This document shows positions 15,137 to 22,892 of a DNA stretch of 36,314 nt, piece after piece. Each line of letters starts with the position of its first letter. The stretch's first letter is position 1. The DNA is from Chryseobacterium gleum (lineage in GTDB: Bacteria; Bacteroidota; Bacteroidia; Flavobacteriales_D; Sanyastnellaceae), in assembly GCA_945874695.1 (NCBI GenBank), contig CAMCHP010000029.1, positions 1 to 36,314 of the forward strand, given 5' to 3'. The notes beneath the pieces were generated by a model. That model did not search any database. It saw only the letters and a list, made by a program, of their open reading frames with translations, and was not told the origin of the DNA. The position numbers and the translations under genes were made by a program.

Positions 15137-18100
15137 ATGAAGCAATTTGTAACCTTAGTTTTCTTCGTTCTTGTAGTGTTTACGGGCATCTCACAGCGTG
15201 TGCTTGATGTTGAAATGAACATTAACTGGACCGATGAAGCCGGAATTCAGCCCCTTCCCGTGGGTAAAATTGGATTCGAAAATGCTTGGTGTGAGGATGA
15301 AATTCCGCTCGCTTTGTTCGATCGCAAGCTCGATTTGCGTGCTTCAAGAGCTGAATTTGTGATTACCAACATCGAATCTGAGTCGGTTTCAATCGACAAA
15401 TTGACTGCCCGACAGCTCGCTTTGCTTCCAAACGATGCCATTTTCGAACCACGCATCGCCGATGCACGAGATGCTTCTCACGCTCAAATTATAGTCACAC
15501 CGATCTGGAGGAATCCGATAACGAAAGAAGTGCGCAGGGTTACACGGTTTACGGGGCAATTGACAATTACTCCTGGACGAAGAACCGCATCGCGTACAAT
15601 CAATTGGGCTGATGAATCAGTCCTCCGCCAAGGAGAGTGGTATCGTTTTGCGATTGCTAGAGACGGGGTTTATCGCATCGATCACGCATTTCTGCAAAAT
15701 TTGGGTGTTGATGTGGATGCCATCAATCCGCAACAACTGAACATCTATGGCAATGGAGGTGAGCTTTTGCCTTTTTCAAATAGCATTGACCGCCGCGATG
15801 ATTTGGCGCGTAATGCCATTTTGATTGTGGGTGAAGAAGATGGCTCGTTTGATGTCAACGATTATGTGCTCTTCTACGGTAAAGGCCCTGATTCTTGGAT
15901 CTTCGATGCAGAAAACAACCGGTTTGCTCATGAGAAGCACCCCTACAGCGATTCGGCTTATTATTTTCTTCGTGTTGATGACCTTAGTCCTTTGCGAATA
16001 AGTGATCAGCTCCCTGCAGGGGTCGAAAGTAACGTAAGCAACGCGTTCACAGATCGTCAATTCATCGAGAATGAAACCGTAAATCTTGCAAAATCGGGTC
16101 GTGAATTTTTTGGTGATCGCTTTGCCAACACACAAACAGTGCCCTATGTATTCACAACACCTAATTTGTTGGCTGAAGAAGCCAGTTTAGAAACACGGGT
16201 TGTCGTGCGTTCAATTGGTGCTCAAAGTGCCTTTACTTTAAGTATGGCGGGAGCTTCAATTACCCTTTCTCCTTCACCGACAAATACTGGAGTTACCGCG
16301 AACTTTGCGAACCTACAATCTGGCATCGCAACAACAATCCCTCCCGGAGGAAATACGCTTGCTGTGAATGTTCAATTTAACCCAGCTGTTGCCGACGCAG
16401 AAGGTTGGATTGACTTTATTCGCATTAATGCGCGGCGTCAACTGGCCATGAGTGGCAGCCAAATGGCATTTCGTGATCCGCAAACTGTCGCGTCTAATGC
16501 TGTTACGAAGTACATCATTTCGAACGCGTCTTCAATCAGTGAAGTGTGGGACATTACCGACGTAACACAACCCATTCGGATGGTACTTTCTCCCGTGGAC
16601 GGCAGTCCGGGTTCGATTGAATTTACGGCCTCAAGTAACGAATTGCGCGAATACATTGCATTTGCCAATTTCAACTACTTGCAACCAGCCCCCATTGGTC
16701 GGGTCGAGAACCAGAACCTTCATGCTTTGAATGATGTTGACATGGTCATCTTGACGGGAGCCCGTTTCTTGGGTTTGGCTGAACAGTTGAAAGAAATACA
16801 CCTTCCCGATGGCTTGACCATTGAAATTGTAACCCCACAGCAGGTTTACAATGAGTTTTCTAGCGGCAATGCAGATGTCACGGCGATCAAGTCGCTCATG
16901 AAAATGCTATGGGATCGAGCAGGAAGCAATGAAGACCTTCGTCCGAAATACCTGCAAATCATTGGTGATGGGAGCTTTTTGAATCGACACATCGCAACGA
17001 ATTCCCCAGTTGTGATTTCCTATCAAAGCGATAACTCGCTCTCACCGGTTAATTCCTACGTGAGCGACGACTACTTTGGTTTTCTCGAAGATCAGTTTGG
17101 TGAAGGTTTGGGCGATAAAATGGCGATCGCTGTTGGCCGAATCCCCTGTGAGTCGTTTGCTGAAGGGCAAGGTTATATTAATAAGTTGCGCAACTATTTA
17201 TCGACCAACACTACGCCGAACGGAGATGCTTACTGCATTGGCGATGAGAATCGCTCACCCTTTGGCAATTGGCGCAATGTGATCACTTTGGTTTCTGACG
17301 ATATGGATGGGAGCAGTGGCCCTAATGAGGTCATTCACATGATCAATTCAGAGGAACATGCCAACCGCATCTACGAGGATTACAACGACTACGACGTCGT
17401 GAAAATTTATATGGATGCCTATCAACAAATCTCTACCCCTGGCGGTGAACGATATCCTGCGGTTGAAGATGCCATCCGTAGAAGGGTTGAAAACGGTGCA
17501 CTCATGGTCAATTACATTGGTCACGGCGGTGAAAGGGGATGGGCGCACGAGCGCATTCTCAACATTTCTACAATTCAAGATTGGACAAACTTCAATCGAT
17601 TGCCGGTATTCATAACTGCAACCTGCGAACTTGCGCGTTTCGACAACCCTGAATTTAAATCTGCAGGTGAACTCCTCGTCATGAACCCCAACGGAGGTGC
17701 AATTGCAATGCTCACCACAACACGCATCGTTTTCAGTGGAGGAAATCAACAGCTGAATCGTGCGTTTTTTAATGTCGCATTAGAAGACCAAAACATCGAG
17801 AATTTATCGCTTGGCTTTATTGCAATGACCACGAAAAACGATGACAACGTAAGCGACTCAAGTAACAAGCGTAATTTCAGCTTACTCGGTGACGTTGCGT
17901 TGCGGATCGCCTACCCGAAAGTTGAGGTGTATACGACAGAATTAAACGGACAGGCTATAGATCCCTTAGAACCCGATACCATTCGGTCACTTCAATTGGT
18001 CACGTTCAAAGGCTTTGTCGGTGATGAAAATGGCGTAAAGCTTAACGATTTCAATGGATTTGTATACCCTACGGTATATGATAAGAAATCGGATGTTACT

Positions 18101-19003
18101 TCATTGAACAATGATGGTGCGGTCAATCCATACAACTTTGAAGTTTGGAGAAATGTCATATATAAAGGTAAGGCGAGCGTGGTGAATGGTGATTTTACTT
18201 TCTCATTCATTGTGCCACGTGATATTGCCTTTGATTTTGGCAACGGAAGAATCAGTTACTACGCAGTTGCTGGTAGCTTAGATGGACATGGTCATGCCGA
18301 AGATTTCATCATCGGCGGGGCTTTGGAAGGTGCTGAACTCAATGACGCTGCGCCTGAACTCGAGGTCTTCATGAATGATACGACTTTTGTTTTTGGTGGA
18401 ATAACGAATGAAAATCCAATTCTTTTGGCGCGTGTACGGGCAGAGAATGGAGTAAACACAGCCGGAAGCGGCATCGGACACGACCTGAAGGCCATTCTTG
18501 ACGGCAACACGGCTGACCCGATTGTGTTGAATGATTTTTATGAAGCCGACCTCGATACCTACCAAAGCGGGAGCATTCGTTACCCCCTCCGCAGCCTCTC
18601 TGAAGGTGTACACAACATTTCAGTGAAGGTCTGGGATGTACACAACAATTCAAGTGAAGGTTTTACTGAGTTTGTAGTCGCGGGTGCCGCTGAAATGGCC
18701 TTAGAACACGTGCTCAATTACCCCAACCCGTTTACCACCCGTACAATGTTCATGTTTGAACACAACCAGGCATGCGAAGCATTGAATGTCCAAATACAAG
18801 TATTTACAGTTTCTGGGAAAATGGTCAAGACCATTAATTCAGTGGTTAGAACAGAAGGTTTCAGAAGCGAACCCATTGAATGGGATGGCTTAGATGATTT
18901 CGGAGATAGCATCGGACGCGGGGTTTACATTTATCGTTTGAAAGTAACTACCCCCGACGGGGCAAGTGCCGAACAATTTGAAAAGCTTGTTCTATTAAGA
19001 TAA
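15137..19003 (+). CDS. porU: Type IX secretion system sortase PorU
   Basis: A 1288-residue protein. PorU is the cell-surface C25 (gingipain-like) transpeptidase that removes sorting domains from cargo and joins many cargoes to A-LPS. Seen: a signal peptide (MKQFVTLVFFVLVVFTGISQ); an N-terminal beta-region; the C25 catalytic region with His796 in NYIGHGGERGW and Cys830 in TATCELARFDNP, about 34 residues apart as in the family; GELLVMNPNGGAIAMLTTTR after it; and a C-terminal sorting-like domain (NYPNPFTTRTMFMFEHN...GRGVYIYRL) of the uncleaved type kept in PorU. It is followed by porV after 46 bases. No exact promoter box is found upstream; the sequence at 15101-15107 reads TACTTTG, one base short of the consensus. 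Confidence 0.96.
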   Translation: MKQFVTLVFFVLVVFTGISQRVLDVEMNINWTDEAGIQPLPVGKIGFENAWCEDEIPLALFDRKLDLRASRAEFVITNIESESVSIDKLTARQLALLPNDAIFEPRIADARDASHAQIIVTPIWRNPITKEVRRVTRFTGQLTITPGRRTASRTINWADESVLRQGEWYRFAIARDGVYRIDHAFLQNLGVDVDAINPQQLNIYGNGGELLPFSNSIDRRDDLARNAILIVGEEDGSFDVNDYVLFYGKGPDSWIFDAENNRFAHEKHPYSDSAYYFLRVDDLSPLRISDQLPAGVESNVSNAFTDRQFIENETVNLAKSGREFFGDRFANTQTVPYVFTTPNLLAEEASLETRVVVRSIGAQSAFTLSMAGASITLSPSPTNTGVTANFANLQSGIATTIPPGGNTLAVNVQFNPAVADAEGWIDFIRINARRQLAMSGSQMAFRDPQTVASNAVTKYIISNASSISEVWDITDVTQPIRMVLSPVDGSPGSIEFTASSNELREYIAFANFNYLQPAPIGRVENQNLHALNDVDMVILTGARFLGLAEQLKEIHLPDGLTIEIVTPQQVYNEFSSGNADVTAIKSLMKMLWDRAGSNEDLRPKYLQIIGDGSFLNRHIATNSPVVISYQSDNSLSPVNSYVSDDYFGFLEDQFGEGLGDKMAIAVGRIPCESFAEGQGYINKLRNYLSTNTTPNGDAYCIGDENRSPFGNWRNVITLVSDDMDGSSGPNEVIHMINSEEHANRIYEDYNDYDVVKIYMDAYQQISTPGGERYPAVEDAIRRRVENGALMVNYIGHGGERGWAHERILNISTIQDWTNFNRLPVFITATCELARFDNPEFKSAGELLVMNPNGGAIAMLTTTRIVFSGGNQQLNRAFFNVALEDQNIENLSLGFIAMTTKNDDNVSDSSNKRNFSLLGDVALRIAYPKVEVYTTELNGQAIDPLEPDTIRSLQLVTFKGFVGDENGVKLNDFNGFVYPTVYDKKSDVTSLNNDGAVNPYNFEVWRNVIYKGKASVVNGDFTFSFIVPRDIAFDFGNGRISYYAVAGSLDGHGHAEDFIIGGALEGAELNDAAPELEVFMNDTTFVFGGITNENPILLARVRAENGVNTAGSGIGHDLKAILDGNTADPIVLNDFYEADLDTYQSGSIRYPLRSLSEGVHNISVKVWDVHNNSSEGFTEFVVAGAAEMALEHVLNYPNPFTTRTMFMFEHNQACEALNVQIQVFTVSGKMVKTINSVVRTEGFRSEPIEWDGLDDFGDSIGRGVYIYRLKVTTPDGASAEQFEKLVLLR

Positions 19004-19027
19004 TCGAACTTTTTCGCGCCTTATGCG

Positions 19028-19035
19028 TATATTTG
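19028..19035 (+). promoter_or_regulatory. -7 promoter element before porV
   Basis: TATATTTG matches TAnnTTTG. It lies in the porU-porV gap, overlapping the first in-frame ATG region (19023), which favours the later ATG at 19050 or 19059 as the porV start. No clear -33 TTG. Confidence 0.45.
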
Positions 19036-19049
19036 TCAACTTTTGTAAG

Positions 19050-20306
19050 ATGCAATCCATGACTGGAAAAATAACCGCGGCTGTAGTAGCCATGCTTCTC
19101 ACCGCTCAATGGGCCCAAGCACAGCTGTCAAGCCAACAAGACCGTGCGCAACAGGTACAATTGAACACCATTACCACGGCCGTTCCTTTTTTGCTTATTG
19201 CACCCGACTCCCGGTCTGGCGCCTTAGGTGATGCCGGTGTAGCGCTTTCTCCAGATGCTGCAAGTATGCACTGGAATCCAGGCAAACTCGCATTCGCTGA
19301 GAACGAGTTTGAAGTAACCTTGTCATACTCGCCTTGGTTGCGCGCCTTGGTTGACGACATGAACTTAGCATATGTAGCAGGGTACAAAAAGTTGAACAAG
19401 AATCAAGCAGTCTCTGCAGGGATTCGCTTTTTCTCCTTAGGAAAAATCACATTTACCGACGAAACGGGTACCGCAATTCGCGATTTCAGACCTGCTGAGT
19501 TTAGCCTCGATGCAGCCTTTTCACAGAAATTCTCGCGAAAATTCTCTGGGGGCGTGGGCGCTCGCTTCATCAACTCGAACTTGACCGGCAACATGAACGT
19601 GCTCGGTGCAGATAGCCGTCCCGGTCGCTCAGTGGCAGTAGACGTAGGCTTATTCTACACCGACGATAAGGTTAAGCTCGGTGACAAAGAAGCCATTTGG
19701 AACGTCGGCATGAATGTTTCGAACATCGGCGCCAAAATGAGCTACACCGAAACTGCGCAACGTGATTTCATACCTGCAAACCTGCGCTTAGGTACGGCAT
19801 TGACGATGCTCCTCGACGAGTACAACGCACTGACATTTACTGTTGATGCAAATAAGCTTTTGGTCCCGACTCCGCCAGCGTATGACCCAAATGACCGCAC
19901 AAGCATCATCTCGGGCATTGACCCGAACGTGGGTGTGGCTACAGCCATGGTGCAAAGTTTCTACGATGCGCCAGGTAACGTGATCTTTCAACAAGATGGC
20001 TCTTACATCATCGAAGAAGGCAGTAAATGGCGTGAAGAGTTACGTGAGATCAACATCGGTGGGGGTATGGAGTATTGGTACGATAAGCAGTTTGCTTTCC
20101 GTGCAGGCTACTTTTACGAGCATTTCACAAAAGGTAACCGTCAGTTCATTACACTCGGTGCAGGGTTGAAGTACACCGTGTTCGCGATTGACCTTTCATA
20201 CCTCATTTCAACAACGCAACAGAATCCGCTTGCGAACACACTCCGCTTTACCTTGCGTTTGGAGTTCGATAAGCTCGATGGAAACAGCAACCGCTCAGAA
20301 GGATAA
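19050..20306 (+). CDS. porV: T9SS outer-membrane protein PorV
   Basis: About 418 residues. PorV is an outer-membrane barrel of the FadL type that receives cargo from the Sov/SprA translocon and passes it to PorU. Seen: a signal peptide ending WAQAQ, then TAVPFLLIAPDSRSGALGDAGVALSPDAASMHWNPGKLAF, the diagnostic PorV opening, and barrel strands to the end. An in-frame ATG at 19023 would add nine residues but lies before the -7 box, so 19050 (or 19059) is preferred. porU upstream and ispF downstream (TAATG overlap) share the direction. Porphyromonas literature also uses the name LptO. Confidence 0.95.
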   Translation: MQSMTGKITAAVVAMLLTAQWAQAQLSSQQDRAQQVQLNTITTAVPFLLIAPDSRSGALGDAGVALSPDAASMHWNPGKLAFAENEFEVTLSYSPWLRALVDDMNLAYVAGYKKLNKNQAVSAGIRFFSLGKITFTDETGTAIRDFRPAEFSLDAAFSQKFSRKFSGGVGARFINSNLTGNMNVLGADSRPGRSVAVDVGLFYTDDKVKLGDKEAIWNVGMNVSNIGAKMSYTETAQRDFIPANLRLGTALTMLLDEYNALTFTVDANKLLVPTPPAYDPNDRTSIISGIDPNVGVATAMVQSFYDAPGNVIFQQDGSYIIEEGSKWREELREINIGGGMEYWYDKQFAFRAGYFYEHFTKGNRQFITLGAGLKYTVFAIDLSYLISTTQQNPLANTLRFTLRLEFDKLDGNSNRSEG

Positions 20307-20794
20307 TGGCTACGCCTAATTTCCGCGTCGGATTCGGGTATGATGTGCACCAACTGCAAGAAGGCTTCGACCTCTGGTTGGGTGGCATAAAAGTTGATCA
20401 CAGTAAAGGTTCGGTTGGCCACAGCGATGCCGATGTAATTTTACACGTCATTTGTGACGCCTTGCTCGGTGCTGCGAATTTGCGCGACATCGGTTTCCAC
20501 TTTCCTGACACAGATCCGGCATACAAAGGCATTGACAGCAAAATCTTGCTCAAAAAAACCGTTGAGATTATCCGTAAGCATGGCTATGAGTGGGGCAATG
20601 TAGACGTCACTGTCGCGTTGCAACGCCCGAAGGTGCTGCCCTTCATCCCAACCATGTGCCAAACCATCGCCGAGCACGCAGGGGTGAACCTCGATGCGAT
20701 TTCAGTCAAAGCAACCACAACCGAGAAACTCGGCTTTGTGGGCAATGAAGAAGGGGTTGCTGCGTATGCCGTGGCGTTAATTTTTAAGCCCTAA
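20306..20794 (+). CDS. ispF: 2-C-methyl-D-erythritol 2,4-cyclodiphosphate synthase
   Basis: A 162-residue enzyme of the non-mevalonate (MEP) isoprenoid pathway that cyclises CDP-ME-2-phosphate to MEcPP with release of CMP. Zinc ligands: Asp13 and His15 in GFGYDVHQL and His47 in SDADVILHVICDALLGA. The Thr-rich substrate loop VKATTTEKLGFVGNEEGVAAYAV is near the end. Length is normal. The ATG overlaps the porV stop (TAATG at 20304-20308), so it is translationally coupled to porV. Its stop codon TAA forms part of a dispersed hairpin copy. Confidence 0.97.
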   Translation: MATPNFRVGFGYDVHQLQEGFDLWLGGIKVDHSKGSVGHSDADVILHVICDALLGAANLRDIGFHFPDTDPAYKGIDSKILLKKTVEIIRKHGYEWGNVDVTVALQRPKVLPFIPTMCQTIAEHAGVNLDAISVKATTTEKLGFVGNEEGVAAYAVALIFKP

Positions 20795-20805
20795 CGGGCG
20801 GATGG
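20783..20805 (+). repeat. Dispersed hairpin motif, copy 5
   Basis: Plus strand: TTTAA, stem GCCC, loop TAAC, stem GGGC, then GGATGG. It spans the ispF stop codon and the 13-base gap to the convergent DUF4956 gene. Its 19 core bases are identical to copy 8 in anmK. On the minus strand a T/A-rich tract follows, so it might also help terminate the DUF4956 transcript. The outer pair is A-G, unlike other copies. Confidence 0.75.
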
Positions 20806-20807
20806 GT

Positions 20808-21563
20808 TTATTCCCCACCACCAGCAGTTTCCTCAAAATGGCCCTCTTGGGCATCGTGAAAGAAATAGATTTTCACCAAAGCCGTGTCGCGTAAGAAATC
20901 GATACGACCCACTTCAACACGGTTGATGATGATCCCAGTGCGCTCTTCTAAGTCAGCCTTAAGTGCAGCGCGATTGCCTGATTTGATGAGTTCAATGCGC
21001 TCGTAAAGGACGATTTTGTGCGATTCGTGTCGCAAAAGCCAAACCTTCTCTAATCCGTAGGTTAACAAAAGGATCAGTCCATTGGCCAAGCCAATTTCAG
21101 CCATTGAAACGCCAGCAGCCAGCGAATTCATTACAGCAAGTCCAATCACGATGAACAGGTAAGTCATTTCCTTGATTGGAATAGCATCAGTTCGGTATCT
21201 GATGATGCCGAAAATCGCAAAAAGGCCCAGGGCAAAGGCCAAATCAAGTGAAACACTCGCCAAGATGTAGCACAAAAAGAAGATTGACACCGACACCAAC
21301 ATGAAGGTGAACATGTAATCTTTGCGCTTGGTAATTGGGTAGTAAATCATCCGAATCAAAATCGTAGTGATTCCGAGGTTCATGGCCAAGCGCATAATGA
21401 GCTTGAGAAAACTATTAGCATTATAGATTTCCATCTCGTCGGCGCCAGTAGCCAATGCTGTGACGACATCTTGGCCACGCAAAACCTGCGCTAAAAATGA
21501 AAATGACAAAATAAGGAGCCAATTGAATCGGCTATTTCTCCAAGTTGATTTTAAGCTGTTCAT
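20808..21563 (-). CDS. DUF4956 integral membrane protein
   Basis: A 251-residue protein with about five or six hydrophobic segments (about 13-29, 52-72, 84-103, 106-121, 132-150, 155-172), then a cytoplasmic-type alpha/beta tail of about 75 residues. The motif FAIFGIIRYRTDAIPIKEMTYLF (split as FAIFGIIRYRTD and IPIKEMTYLF) is the hallmark of DUF4956. The family has no proven function and is often encoded beside VTC-domain polyphosphate polymerase-like proteins, as here: its start overlaps the stop of the upstream VTC gene (ATGA at 21560-21563). A membrane partner or channel for the VTC protein is inference. Confidence 0.85.
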   Translation of the reverse strand: MNSLKSTWRNSRFNWLLILSFSFLAQVLRGQDVVTALATGADEMEIYNANSFLKLIMRLAMNLGITTILIRMIYYPITKRKDYMFTFMLVSVSIFFLCYILASVSLDLAFALGLFAIFGIIRYRTDAIPIKEMTYLFIVIGLAVMNSLAAGVSMAEIGLANGLILLLTYGLEKVWLLRHESHKIVLYERIELIKSGNRAALKADLEERTGIIINRVEVGRIDFLRDTALVKIYFFHDAQEGHFEETAGGGE

Positions 21564-22366
21564 GCAGCGGGCAGGTTAAGGGAAAGGTTTGACGGTTCTA
21601 ATTTTTCGATCGCGCGCAACTTCATATTGATAAAGTTCTTCCGAACTCCAGTGTATAGCAAACCGACTCCAAGGCAGTATTTACTTATTGAATTTGGTCG
21701 AATTAATCTTCTTTTTGCCTCACGGGCAAATTTTGATTCACGATCAAAACGTACTTGTTTGAGCTCAACTACTACGAGGCCATCAATTGATTGCTCTTGC
21801 GAATGTAAATCAGAAAAGCTTAGCGCCCGATCAATTGTTAGACGTTCTGTGAATGAAGAATGTACTAAGGTTATGCGCTCAAAAGAATTCGATACCCTCG
21901 GTTTCAAAGGGGGTTGCTCACCACATGCGGCCTTAATGAATTCAAGATCATCTGGGGTTAGTTCATGCCGCAAATCTTCGATCTCCTTGCGTAATTTTAC
22001 AGTTCGGTCAAGGTTGTTTTTTAGCTTCACTTCCAGAAAGGTAACTCCAGTTGAACAGTACTTTCGCATGCGAACCTTCACACGATTCATTTTTCCGCGT
22101 TGGTGCAAGTCGTAATAAAGCATAGAATCACTATCGAAATAGAGTGTCTCATAGCGCGAAATAAACAACCCTCCCACCTCAAGAATGCGGTATTCCGAAT
22201 TCATGGAGGAGAGCACCGAATCGAGATCAGTAGGCGTCAAAATGTACTTCGTGTCATGCCGGTCAAGCAGAGCCACGCTATCCATTTCTACTAAGCTGAT
22301 CGATTCAAATCCTTGCAGTATCTTCAGCGTATTATCCAAGTGCGGAAAATTAAGAAATTTGCGCAC
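21560..22366 (-). CDS. VTC-domain (polyphosphate polymerase-like) protein
   Basis: About 268 residues from a GTG start at 22366; TTG at 22390 is the alternative and there is no ATG at the N-terminus. The charged residues that line the triphosphate tunnel of yeast Vtc4 have apparent counterparts: R36 and K40 in DRHDTKYIL; R95, K97, R99, R101 in NRVKVRMRKY; E112, K114, K116 in FLEVKLKN; K124 and R126 in TVKLRKEI; R175 and D179 in ERLTIDRAL; E201 and K203 in VVELKQVR; and SKYCLG near the end. A catalytic or polyphosphate-binding protein is therefore likely. The coupled DUF4956 gene follows. No CotH-like kinase gene, another frequent companion, is present. It is divergent from cdd. Confidence 0.85.
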   Translation of the reverse strand: MRKFLNFPHLDNTLKILQGFESISLVEMDSVALLDRHDTKYILTPTDLDSVLSSMNSEYRILEVGGLFISRYETLYFDSDSMLYYDLHQRGKMNRVKVRMRKYCSTGVTFLEVKLKNNLDRTVKLRKEIEDLRHELTPDDLEFIKAACGEQPPLKPRVSNSFERITLVHSSFTERLTIDRALSFSDLHSQEQSIDGLVVVELKQVRFDRESKFAREAKRRLIRPNSISKYCLGVGLLYTGVRKNFINMKLRAIEKLEPSNLSLNLPAA

Positions 22367-22386
22367 GCTGTAACATACTGTACAGC
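22367..22386. promoter_or_regulatory. Inverted repeat between VTC gene and cdd (possible operator)
   Basis: GCTGTA at 22367-22372 and TACAGC at 22381-22386 form a perfect 6-bp inverted repeat with 8 bases between. It lies in the short divergent region, immediately upstream of the preferred VTC GTG start. A regulator site is inference only. Confidence 0.3.
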
Positions 22387-22400
22387 ACAAGTTTTTTATT

Positions 22401-22892
22401 ATGAAAGAAGCCAGTTTTACCTTGAATTATCGCTTGGCCGAGCGCCTCGACGAACTATCTCCTCAAGAACTTACCCTCTTCGAGGCCGCGGTTGCAGCAC
22501 GAGAAATGGCCTATGCGCCATATTCAAATTACAAGGTCGGGGCGGCGCTTCGCCTTGATTCAGGACGAATTGTAATGGGCAATAACCAAGAAAATGCAGC
22601 ATATCCTTCCGGATTATGTGCCGAGCGCGTTGCGCTGTTCGCTGCGCGATCTCAGTATCCCAATGAACGCATTGAGGCCATTGCTGTGATGACAGATGGC
22701 GCCTTTACAGCTTTACCCGCATCACCGTGTGGAGCCTGCCGGCAGGTTATGGTCGAATTCGAAGCACTCCAAAATTCACCCATTCAAGTGATCCTTGCTT
22801 CAATGGATGGAAGGGCTATGTTTGTGCGGAGTTCAGCAGATTTATTGCCATTTTGCTTCACCTGTGAGCAACTTCAAGCAGGCAAAGTGTAA
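22401..22892 (+). CDS. cdd: Cytidine deaminase
   Basis: A 163-residue zinc enzyme that deaminates cytidine and deoxycytidine to uridine forms in pyrimidine salvage. Zinc ligands are Cys73 in GLCAERVAL, with catalytic Glu75, and Cys110 and Cys113 in SPCGACRQV. The substrate segment YAPYSNYKVGAAL (38-50) is intact. About 25 N-terminal residues precede the core. The cdd-pdhA-E2 order after porU-porV is, as I recall, conserved in flavobacteria, but here ispF and the VTC/DUF4956 pair lie between porV and cdd. Confidence 0.96.
   Translation: MKEASFTLNYRLAERLDELSPQELTLFEAAVAAREMAYAPYSNYKVGAALRLDSGRIVMGNNQENAAYPSGLCAERVALFAARSQYPNERIEAIAVMTDGAFTALPASPCGACRQVMVEFEALQNSPIQVILASMDGRAMFVRSSADLLPFCFTCEQLQAGKV

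Follow-up and report, generated by a model that had tools for sequence, protein, structure and literature searches.

The window analysed here is a stretch of 36,314 nucleotides from a genome assigned to Chryseobacterium gleum (assembly GCA_945874695.1, contig CAMCHP010000029.1), and our subject is a pair of overlapping genes on its reverse strand, encoding a VTC-domain (triphosphate tunnel) protein and a membrane protein of the family DUF4956. Both genes had been named in a first-pass annotation made from the sequence alone and were confirmed by a Pfam scan of the window proteins (PF09359, VTC: E 1.6e-19, 70.8 bits, cut-off 23; PF16316, DUF4956: E 9.3e-53, 178.9 bits, cut-off 30.6), while an NCBIfam scan of the two proteins matched no family. 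The pair is real and nearly obligate in related genomes, its first member is likely a polyphosphate polymerase to judge from sequence and modelled structure, and the genomes that carry it nearly always encode CotH proteins as well.

The two genes and their products

The ATGA over which the two reading frames overlap is visible in the window, as first described, and a close coupling is conserved in relatives. Because ispF lies convergent and the cytidine deaminase gene divergent to them, the VTC and DUF4956 genes form a two-gene unit here (Table 1). The GTG at 22366 with which the VTC gene had first been opened is probably nine codons too early, because the TTG at 22337-22339 aligns with the ATG of a relative (L061) whose VTC protein is 48% identical, and the start of the model is poorly resolved (mean pLDDT 54 over the first ten residues).

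The AlphaFold model of the VTC protein (mean pLDDT 92) has a triphosphate-tunnel fold, a well-supported prediction, and chains of the VTC complex are its closest matches in the PDB (Z about 17). The best match in a structure search was 3g3r_B (Vtc4; E 2e-12), and structural alignment gave 9umg_E (Z 17.3), 3g3o (Vtc2; Z 17.2) and 3g3r_A (Vtc4; Z 17.0, 3.2 Å over 210 residues). The CYTH/TTM proteins rank lower (Z 13-15, with ygiF and AtTTM3 among them; E. coli ygiF and a Bacillus CYTH protein reach Z 15). A search of the PDB with the single sequence found no match, whereas a profile of 20 relatives found the yeast proteins Vtc2 (E 2e-5) and Vtc4 (E 9.5e-4).

We compared the window protein with a list of Vtc4 tunnel residues. 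The Vtc4 residues K200, R264, R266, K281, K294 and R361 correspond to K40, R99, R101, K114, K124 and R164 of the window protein, and R373, E426, K428, S457 and K458 to R175, E201, K203, S228 and K229, the C-terminal part of this alignment being weak when taken alone. In an alignment of 60 sequences, i.e. the window protein and 59 of the 65 VTC proteins of named loci (L107, L146, L151, L156, L161 and L180 were omitted for their odd length), R99, R101, E201 and K229 are invariant; the Lys/Arg/Glu arrangement is kept at these four positions, within a Vtc-like fold. Mutation of R264, R266 and E426 is described to impair Vtc4 (a cryo-EM study; PMC9911596), K458 is given as the catalytic residue, and an acidic patch (E2, E4, E90 and E171 in AtTTM3), common to many tunnel enzymes, is said to replace four basic residues of Vtc4 (PMC4641920). 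On a gap-free alignment that sets model residue 34 against AtTTM3 residue 0, R36 stands at the position of E2 and D38 at that of E4. K203 is the counterpart of E171, which comes two residues after the metal-binding E169 (E201 here). The fourth patch position (AtTTM3 E90) may correspond to K124/R126, to judge from the motif. The charge pattern of the predicted tunnel is therefore mostly, not wholly, polymerase-like, and at least half of the acidic patch of the CYTH/TTM triphosphatases, with which the protein shares the tunnel fold, would be replaced by basic residues.

The protein resembles the eukaryotic VTC complex (Vtc4 with Vtc1 and Vtc2/Vtc3) in its tunnel domain and in having a closely coupled membrane partner. 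It differs in that no SPX domain was found, the VTC domain being the sole Pfam match in its 268 residues, and in that no membrane segment of its own was seen, there being no long hydrophobic helix among the elements of the model. In place of the VTC membrane domains there is a separate DUF4956 protein.

The model of the DUF4956 protein (mean pLDDT 84) bears out its description as a multi-pass protein: behind a hydrophobic N-terminal helix it shows five membrane-length helices, at residues 49-78, 81-103, 108-124, 130-151 and 154-175. In an alignment of the window protein with 62 of 63 further sequences (L169 was omitted), conserved basic positions lie within the first spanning helix (R58, 57/63; R71, 60/63) and further along at R122, R124 and K131 (63/63 each). 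When the positive-inside rule is applied to the model, the RYRT motif and the C-terminal domain would be cytosolic. The family falls into two subtypes, and the window protein belongs to subtype 1. Subtype 2 aligns directly with MgtC (MgtC/SapB) over 202 columns, C-terminal domain included (probability 96.9), and subtype 1 is linked to it through subtype 2 (98.4), whereas subtype 1 has no significant direct alignment with MgtC; an MgtC profile weakly matches the DUF4956 gene of one genome (G027; E 6e-4). A DUF4956 relative of S. intermedius is described as MgtC-like with an ACT domain in the part of the paper that was available (PMC12345266).

Table 1. Coordinates of the gene pair, its flanking genes and the motifs discussed (positions in the window)
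Feature	Coordinates	Strand	Remark
ispF (YgbB)	20306..20794	+	Convergent neighbour bounding the unit
DUF4956 protein	20808..21563	-	Model: N-terminal hydrophobic helix (possible signal peptide), 5 further membrane-length helices, C-terminal ACT-like domain
C-terminal beta-alpha-beta-beta (ACT-like) domain, DUF4956 residues about 178-237	20853..21032	-	Interpretation of the model
RYRT, DUF4956 residues 122-125	21189..21200	-	Positions 122 and 124 basic in 63/63; putative cytoplasmic end of third membrane helix
ATGA stop/start overlap	21560..21563	-	VTC stop TGA 21562-21560; DUF4956 ATG 21563-21561
VTC-domain (triphosphate tunnel) protein	21560..22366	-	GTG start as first given; likely TTG at 22339, 259 aa
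SK, VTC residues 228-229	21680..21685	-	Vtc4 S457 and catalytic K458; invariant in 60
ELK, VTC residues 201-203	21758..21766	-	Vtc4 E426 and K428; E and K invariant in 60
RMR, VTC residues 99-101	22064..22072	-	Vtc4 R264/R266; both arginines invariant in 60
DRHDTK, VTC residues 35-40	22247..22264	-	K40 is Vtc4 K200; R36 and K40 invariant in 60
Cytidine deaminase	22401..22892	+	Divergent neighbour bounding the unit

Conservation of the pair and its association with CotH

We determined the distribution of the families in 247 genomes of the class, where the places of DUF4956 and CotH are those among the matches listed and the rows of genomes with a match are complete. VTC was found in 122 genomes and DUF4956 in 137, and DUF4956 was present in 121 of the 122 VTC genomes. 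At 129 of 137 VTC places a DUF4956 gene lies within 1.5 kb, always on the same strand (129/129) and mostly behind the VTC gene (VTC first in 120); among the eight exceptions, DUF4956 is one gene away in two (G001:C80, G152:C17) and one VTC gene stands at a contig end (G224). For 75 of 80 named loci both open reading frames (ORFs) were obtained (at least one was missed in L128, L130, L157, L163 and L177), and the DUF4956 frame, counted from its first possible start, opens no later than the last base of the VTC stop in 57 and follows that stop by 2-19 nt in 18; in L052 the ORF caller gave no DUF4956 frame. The VTC proteins also come in two subtypes, which match the DUF4956 subtype at all 132 typed loci (114 + 18, none mixed), even where one genome holds both (G030 with L070 and L072; G220 with L073 and L074); some of these same loci had served to build the subtype profiles, from which L067 and L068 were excluded. 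A functional pairing of VTC with DUF4956 is very likely.

A search through long open frames showed no natural fusion of the two proteins. In G238 and G008 (L067, L068) the DUF4956 frame is long, but this was read as an out-of-frame translation of G+C-rich DNA. In G358, a VTC frame of 778 residues (L205, 2800-5136) carries about 500 extra N-terminal residues, yet DUF4956 and CotH are separate frames there.

CotH was found in 119 of the 122 VTC genomes against 27 of the 125 others (Fisher p 3e-39). Because this test treats genomes as independent, a test stratified by family was added, from which 15 genomes with no family label were omitted; it gave z 6.2 over 16 informative families, and one genome per family gave 34/0/8/23. 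In a phylum-wide draw CotH occurred in 47 of 48 VTC genomes against 60 of 248 others; seven of the 48 were already in the class set, and all 41 new ones carry CotH. One family of six genomes (f7) holds two with VTC, DUF4956 and CotH, two with DUF4956 alone and two with none of them. Among 14 named control genomes VTC and DUF4956 both matched in Bacteroides ihuae, Corynebacterium glutamicum and Methanosarcina acetivorans only, and CotH in B. subtilis, C. glutamicum and M. acetivorans, so that all three families were matched in two organisms outside the phylum, an actinobacterium and an archaeon.

The other families examined show no comparable link. PPK1 was considered as a partner or substitute of VTC and rejected, there being no positive association (91/122 genomes with VTC, 105/125 without; family-stratified z -0.86), and none was found for MgtC in 60 genomes (7/32 vs 10/28). 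Type IX secretion was likewise rejected as a confounder of the CotH link, PorV being near-universal (238/247 genomes). CotH and PPK1 are themselves negatively associated within families (14 joint presences against 18.4 expected, z -3.26, 9 families), and PPK1 is present in all 16 genomes with DUF4956 but no VTC against 91 of 122 with VTC (p 0.022), a weak hint only.

In the host genome, no CotH gene stands beside the pair, as the first-pass annotation had stated, but the statement misleads: two CotH matches lie on other contigs, unlinked to the pair. One of these proteins (L202) combines a hydrophobic N-terminus and a lamin-tail domain with the CotH domain (1.9e-34), and it also carries a signal for type IX secretion (PF13585, 5e-15). 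The other is cut short by the end of its contig. Since CotH lies elsewhere in the genome and VTC nearly implies CotH in the sampled genomes, the functional unit probably comprises more than two genes. The earlier idea of a minimal two-gene bacterial version of the VTC system thus holds for the fold, the catalytic residues and the near-obligate pairing, and probably falls short on the size of the unit. A check for polyphosphate kinases found PPK1 (PF02503) on another contig and no match for PPK2 in the host genome; PPK1, of another Pfam family, would share with the VTC protein its presumed product, polyphosphate. By a crude score, a hydrophobic N-terminus occurs in 21 of 32 CotH ORFs and in none of 44 VTC ORFs, which makes it probable that VTC stays in the cytosol and that most CotH is exported, DUF4956 lying between the two.

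Gene neighbourhoods and published relatives

In many relatives the pair is accompanied by CotH, by a DUF2490 protein that is predicted to lie in the outer membrane, by a small lipoprotein and by a secreted protein about 160-200 residues long. DUF2490 was found at 21 of 43 paired loci hand-picked from the match lists and at 17 of 53 named loci flanked by more than 4 kb on either side, and a CotH-domain ORF in the stretch of 14/43 and 9/53, respectively; a set of 16 loci was chosen partly for a nearby CotH, and their 10/16 is no estimate of frequency. VTC, DUF4956 and CotH stand together in Bacteroidota at L072, L073, L078, L205 and L206, where no pel genes were noticed and no search for pel families was made. 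At the first three of these the trio adjoins what we take to be a glycosyltransferase-like and a polytopic ligase-like protein. Two proteins recur upstream of VTC at L071, L088 and further paired loci, namely a small lipoprotein of about 133 aa and a secreted one, 160-200 aa in length, in which YD-like motifs are repeated; neither has a strong Pfam match.

Within positions 15137-22892 of the window the pair lies between the cytidine deaminase gene and the ispF-porV-porU genes, the latter two related to type IX secretion. The same site recurs in L061, L080, L083 and L094 (both sides) and in L086 and L099 (one side); it is a shared ancestral site in several families, at which some carry accessory genes and others do not, and the window and L061, which belong to the same family, retain the pair alone. 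The Pfam scans of 20 of the 23 window ORFs of at least 200 aa and of two shorter ones otherwise returned housekeeping and type IX secretion genes along with secreted proteins; no polysaccharide- or glycan-synthesis family appeared in the 20 of 23, and no search aimed at pel was made. A scan near the two genes gave one promoter-like site (3.8 expected) and five terminator-like sites (3.0 expected, sd 1.8), from which no inference was made.

Several loci have DUF4956 and no VTC. L048, L049 and L051 have the whole operon apart from VTC (genes for a lipoprotein, a secreted protein, DUF4956 and a DUF2490-like protein), so that VTC can be absent where the other genes are kept. In L053 (4007-6467) and L054 (4063-6494) DUF4956 is convergent with a secreted-looking protein, which in L053 carries the N-terminal domain of a pyruvate phosphate dikinase (PF01326, 3e-32) and with which the L054 protein clusters. 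In L043 (2839-4442) and L044 (3763-5444) the gene behind DUF4956 encodes a protein of 341 aa that looks secreted and, by eye, resembles CotH, but gave no convincing match in Pfam. BT3498-BT3499 of B. thetaiotaomicron, listed together in an iron-stimulon table in the available part of the paper (PMC10434189), belong to the same two families, DUF4956 and DUF2490, that neighbour each other in many loci here.

The first-pass annotation called the function of the pair unknown in bacteria. The pair itself is already in print, in a set of CotH, poly-phosphate polymerase and DUF4956 genes beside the pel operons of streptococci, clostridia and bifidobacteria, as described in those parts of PMC7112168 and PMC12345266 that were available; the corresponding parts of PMC2879425 and PMC11677781 describe a C. 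perfringens locus with VTC and CotH genes, DUF4956 being unnamed. We found no assay of a bacterial VTC protein in the literature searched, subscription papers and preprints lying outside the search; what comes closest is an S. intermedius strain deleted for SIR_1593 (PMC12345266), which is treated below. The host encodes the same three families as the pel-linked sets, two of them adjacent and CotH elsewhere in the genome. Unlike those sets, the CotH genes are not adjacent, no pel genes turned up, and the Bacteroidota sets occur in several contexts.

Possible function of the unit

Our reading, which is a tentative one as a whole, is that the cytosolic VTC protein makes polyphosphate, that DUF4956 anchors it and perhaps exports the chain, and that the product is used together with the exported CotH proteins. 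The pair would form a conserved inner-membrane unit, in which the VTC tunnel enzyme would join the gamma phosphate of ATP into polyphosphate, an activity that is likely given the fold and the catalytic residues. DUF4956, with its five membrane helices, its distant relationship to MgtC and its putatively cytosolic ACT-like domain, would anchor and probably regulate the VTC protein, and might also conduct the chain through the inner membrane, past the conserved arginines; export through or with DUF4956 is plausible, if slightly doubtful. The exported product would be used with the extracytoplasmic CotH kinase-fold proteins, most simply as a phosphoryl donor where ATP is scarce, a role that we regard as unlikely. 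A cytosolic store of polyphosphate would come from the separate PPK1.

A number of observations weigh against this reading. Of the tunnel residues compared, Vtc4 K455 is unmatched, its position being taken by S226, so that the initial claim that all charged tunnel motifs are present stands for the eleven residues above and not for this one; D38 moreover keeps one charge of the acidic patch. The DUF4956 model has no significant match in the PDB (best Foldseek E 0.19; VIA-align Z at most 5.4), an absence that does not demonstrate a new fold. Sixteen of the 247 genomes hold DUF4956 without VTC, from which a VTC-independent role of DUF4956 follows; in these genomes, all of which have PPK1, it may handle polyphosphate from another source or do something else. 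The association with CotH is incomplete on both sides: three of the 122 VTC genomes have no CotH, B. ihuae has VTC and DUF4956 with no CotH match, and 27 of 146 CotH genomes have no VTC (11 of the 27 have DUF4956). The CotH protein of B. subtilis is reportedly a user of ATP. As given in the available part of the S. intermedius paper, deletion of the DUF4956 gene (SIR_1592) or of the CotH gene (SIR_1594) reduced aggregation, and the two mutants changed the amount of Pel in opposite directions, while for deletion of the VTC gene (SIR_1593) no such effect on aggregation or Pel is reported there, which is the strongest contrary fact (PMC12345266).

The same tunnel fold and catalytic residues would serve a membrane-anchored synthase that keeps its polyphosphate in the cytosol, with DUF4956 as a tether that regulates through its ACT-like domain and with an indirect CotH link, for instance through envelope building. 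The putatively cytosolic position of that domain and the lack of any solved channel significantly like DUF4956 point in this direction, but a PPK1 is already present in the genome, the conserved basic residues in or beside the membrane helices (R58, R71, R122, R124) are unusual for a mere tether, and DUF4956 is kept without VTC in the 16 genomes; we consider this possibility unlikely. More unlikely still is a VTC protein that makes no polymer and acts as a tunnel phosphohydrolase or nucleotide-signalling enzyme, with an MgtC-like DUF4956 tuning the balance of phosphate and ATP. The bacterial tunnel enzymes named in the available part of PMC4641920 are tripolyphosphatases and a cyclase, E. coli ygiF and the Bacillus CYTH protein align well with the model, and subtype 2 of DUF4956 aligns with MgtC; against this, the closest structures are chains of the VTC complex, R36 and K203 are basic as in Vtc4 (though D38 is acidic), and MgtC shows no positive co-occurrence with VTC.

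The two further alternatives concern CotH. The three families might make up a module for modifying polymers of the cell surface, exopolysaccharides or others, polyphosphate being perhaps a substituent or a by-product, as is suggested by their position beside pel in Gram-positives and from the altered Pel amounts of the DUF4956 and CotH mutants, according to the accessible parts of PMC7112168 and PMC12345266. The window argues otherwise, no glycan-synthesis family having appeared among the ORFs scanned, and DUF2490 is the frequent neighbour instead, at paired loci that were not systematically scanned for glycan genes. The presumed glycosyltransferase-like and ligase-like neighbours of the trio at L072, L073 and L078 would again fit such a module, which on balance seems rather improbable. 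That the CotH link is passive, i.e. a joint gain and loss through a shared operon in some lineages or through large secretomes, would be consistent with the CotH-domain ORFs near the pair at part of the loci and with genome size being outside the association model. It is made quite improbable by the unlinked position of pair and CotH in the host genome, by the association that holds within families, with joint absence of the pair and CotH in members of f7, and by the near-universal PorV, which leaves type IX secretion no part as a confounder.

Returning to synthesis by VTC and possible export with DUF4956, the co-occurrence with CotH suggests that the pair supplies phosphate outside the cell. 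ATP is scarce outside the cytoplasm, and the phosphate source of extracytoplasmic kinases is a general puzzle. An ATP-independent phosphorylation of secreted and surface proteins, in which polyphosphate exported by the pair feeds CotH kinases, could be widespread in Bacteroidota, although we hold this to be improbable at present. The available part of the S. intermedius report states that the arrangement of CotH, VTC and DUF4956 was not found outside the Pel locus (PMC12345266); contrary to this, the loci described here indicate that it is not special to Pel loci. With exported CotH proteins tied almost perfectly, at the level of genomes, to a predicted polyphosphate synthase and its membrane partner, the working of bacterial VTC proteins and the phosphate supply of extracytoplasmic kinases become a single question that can be tested.

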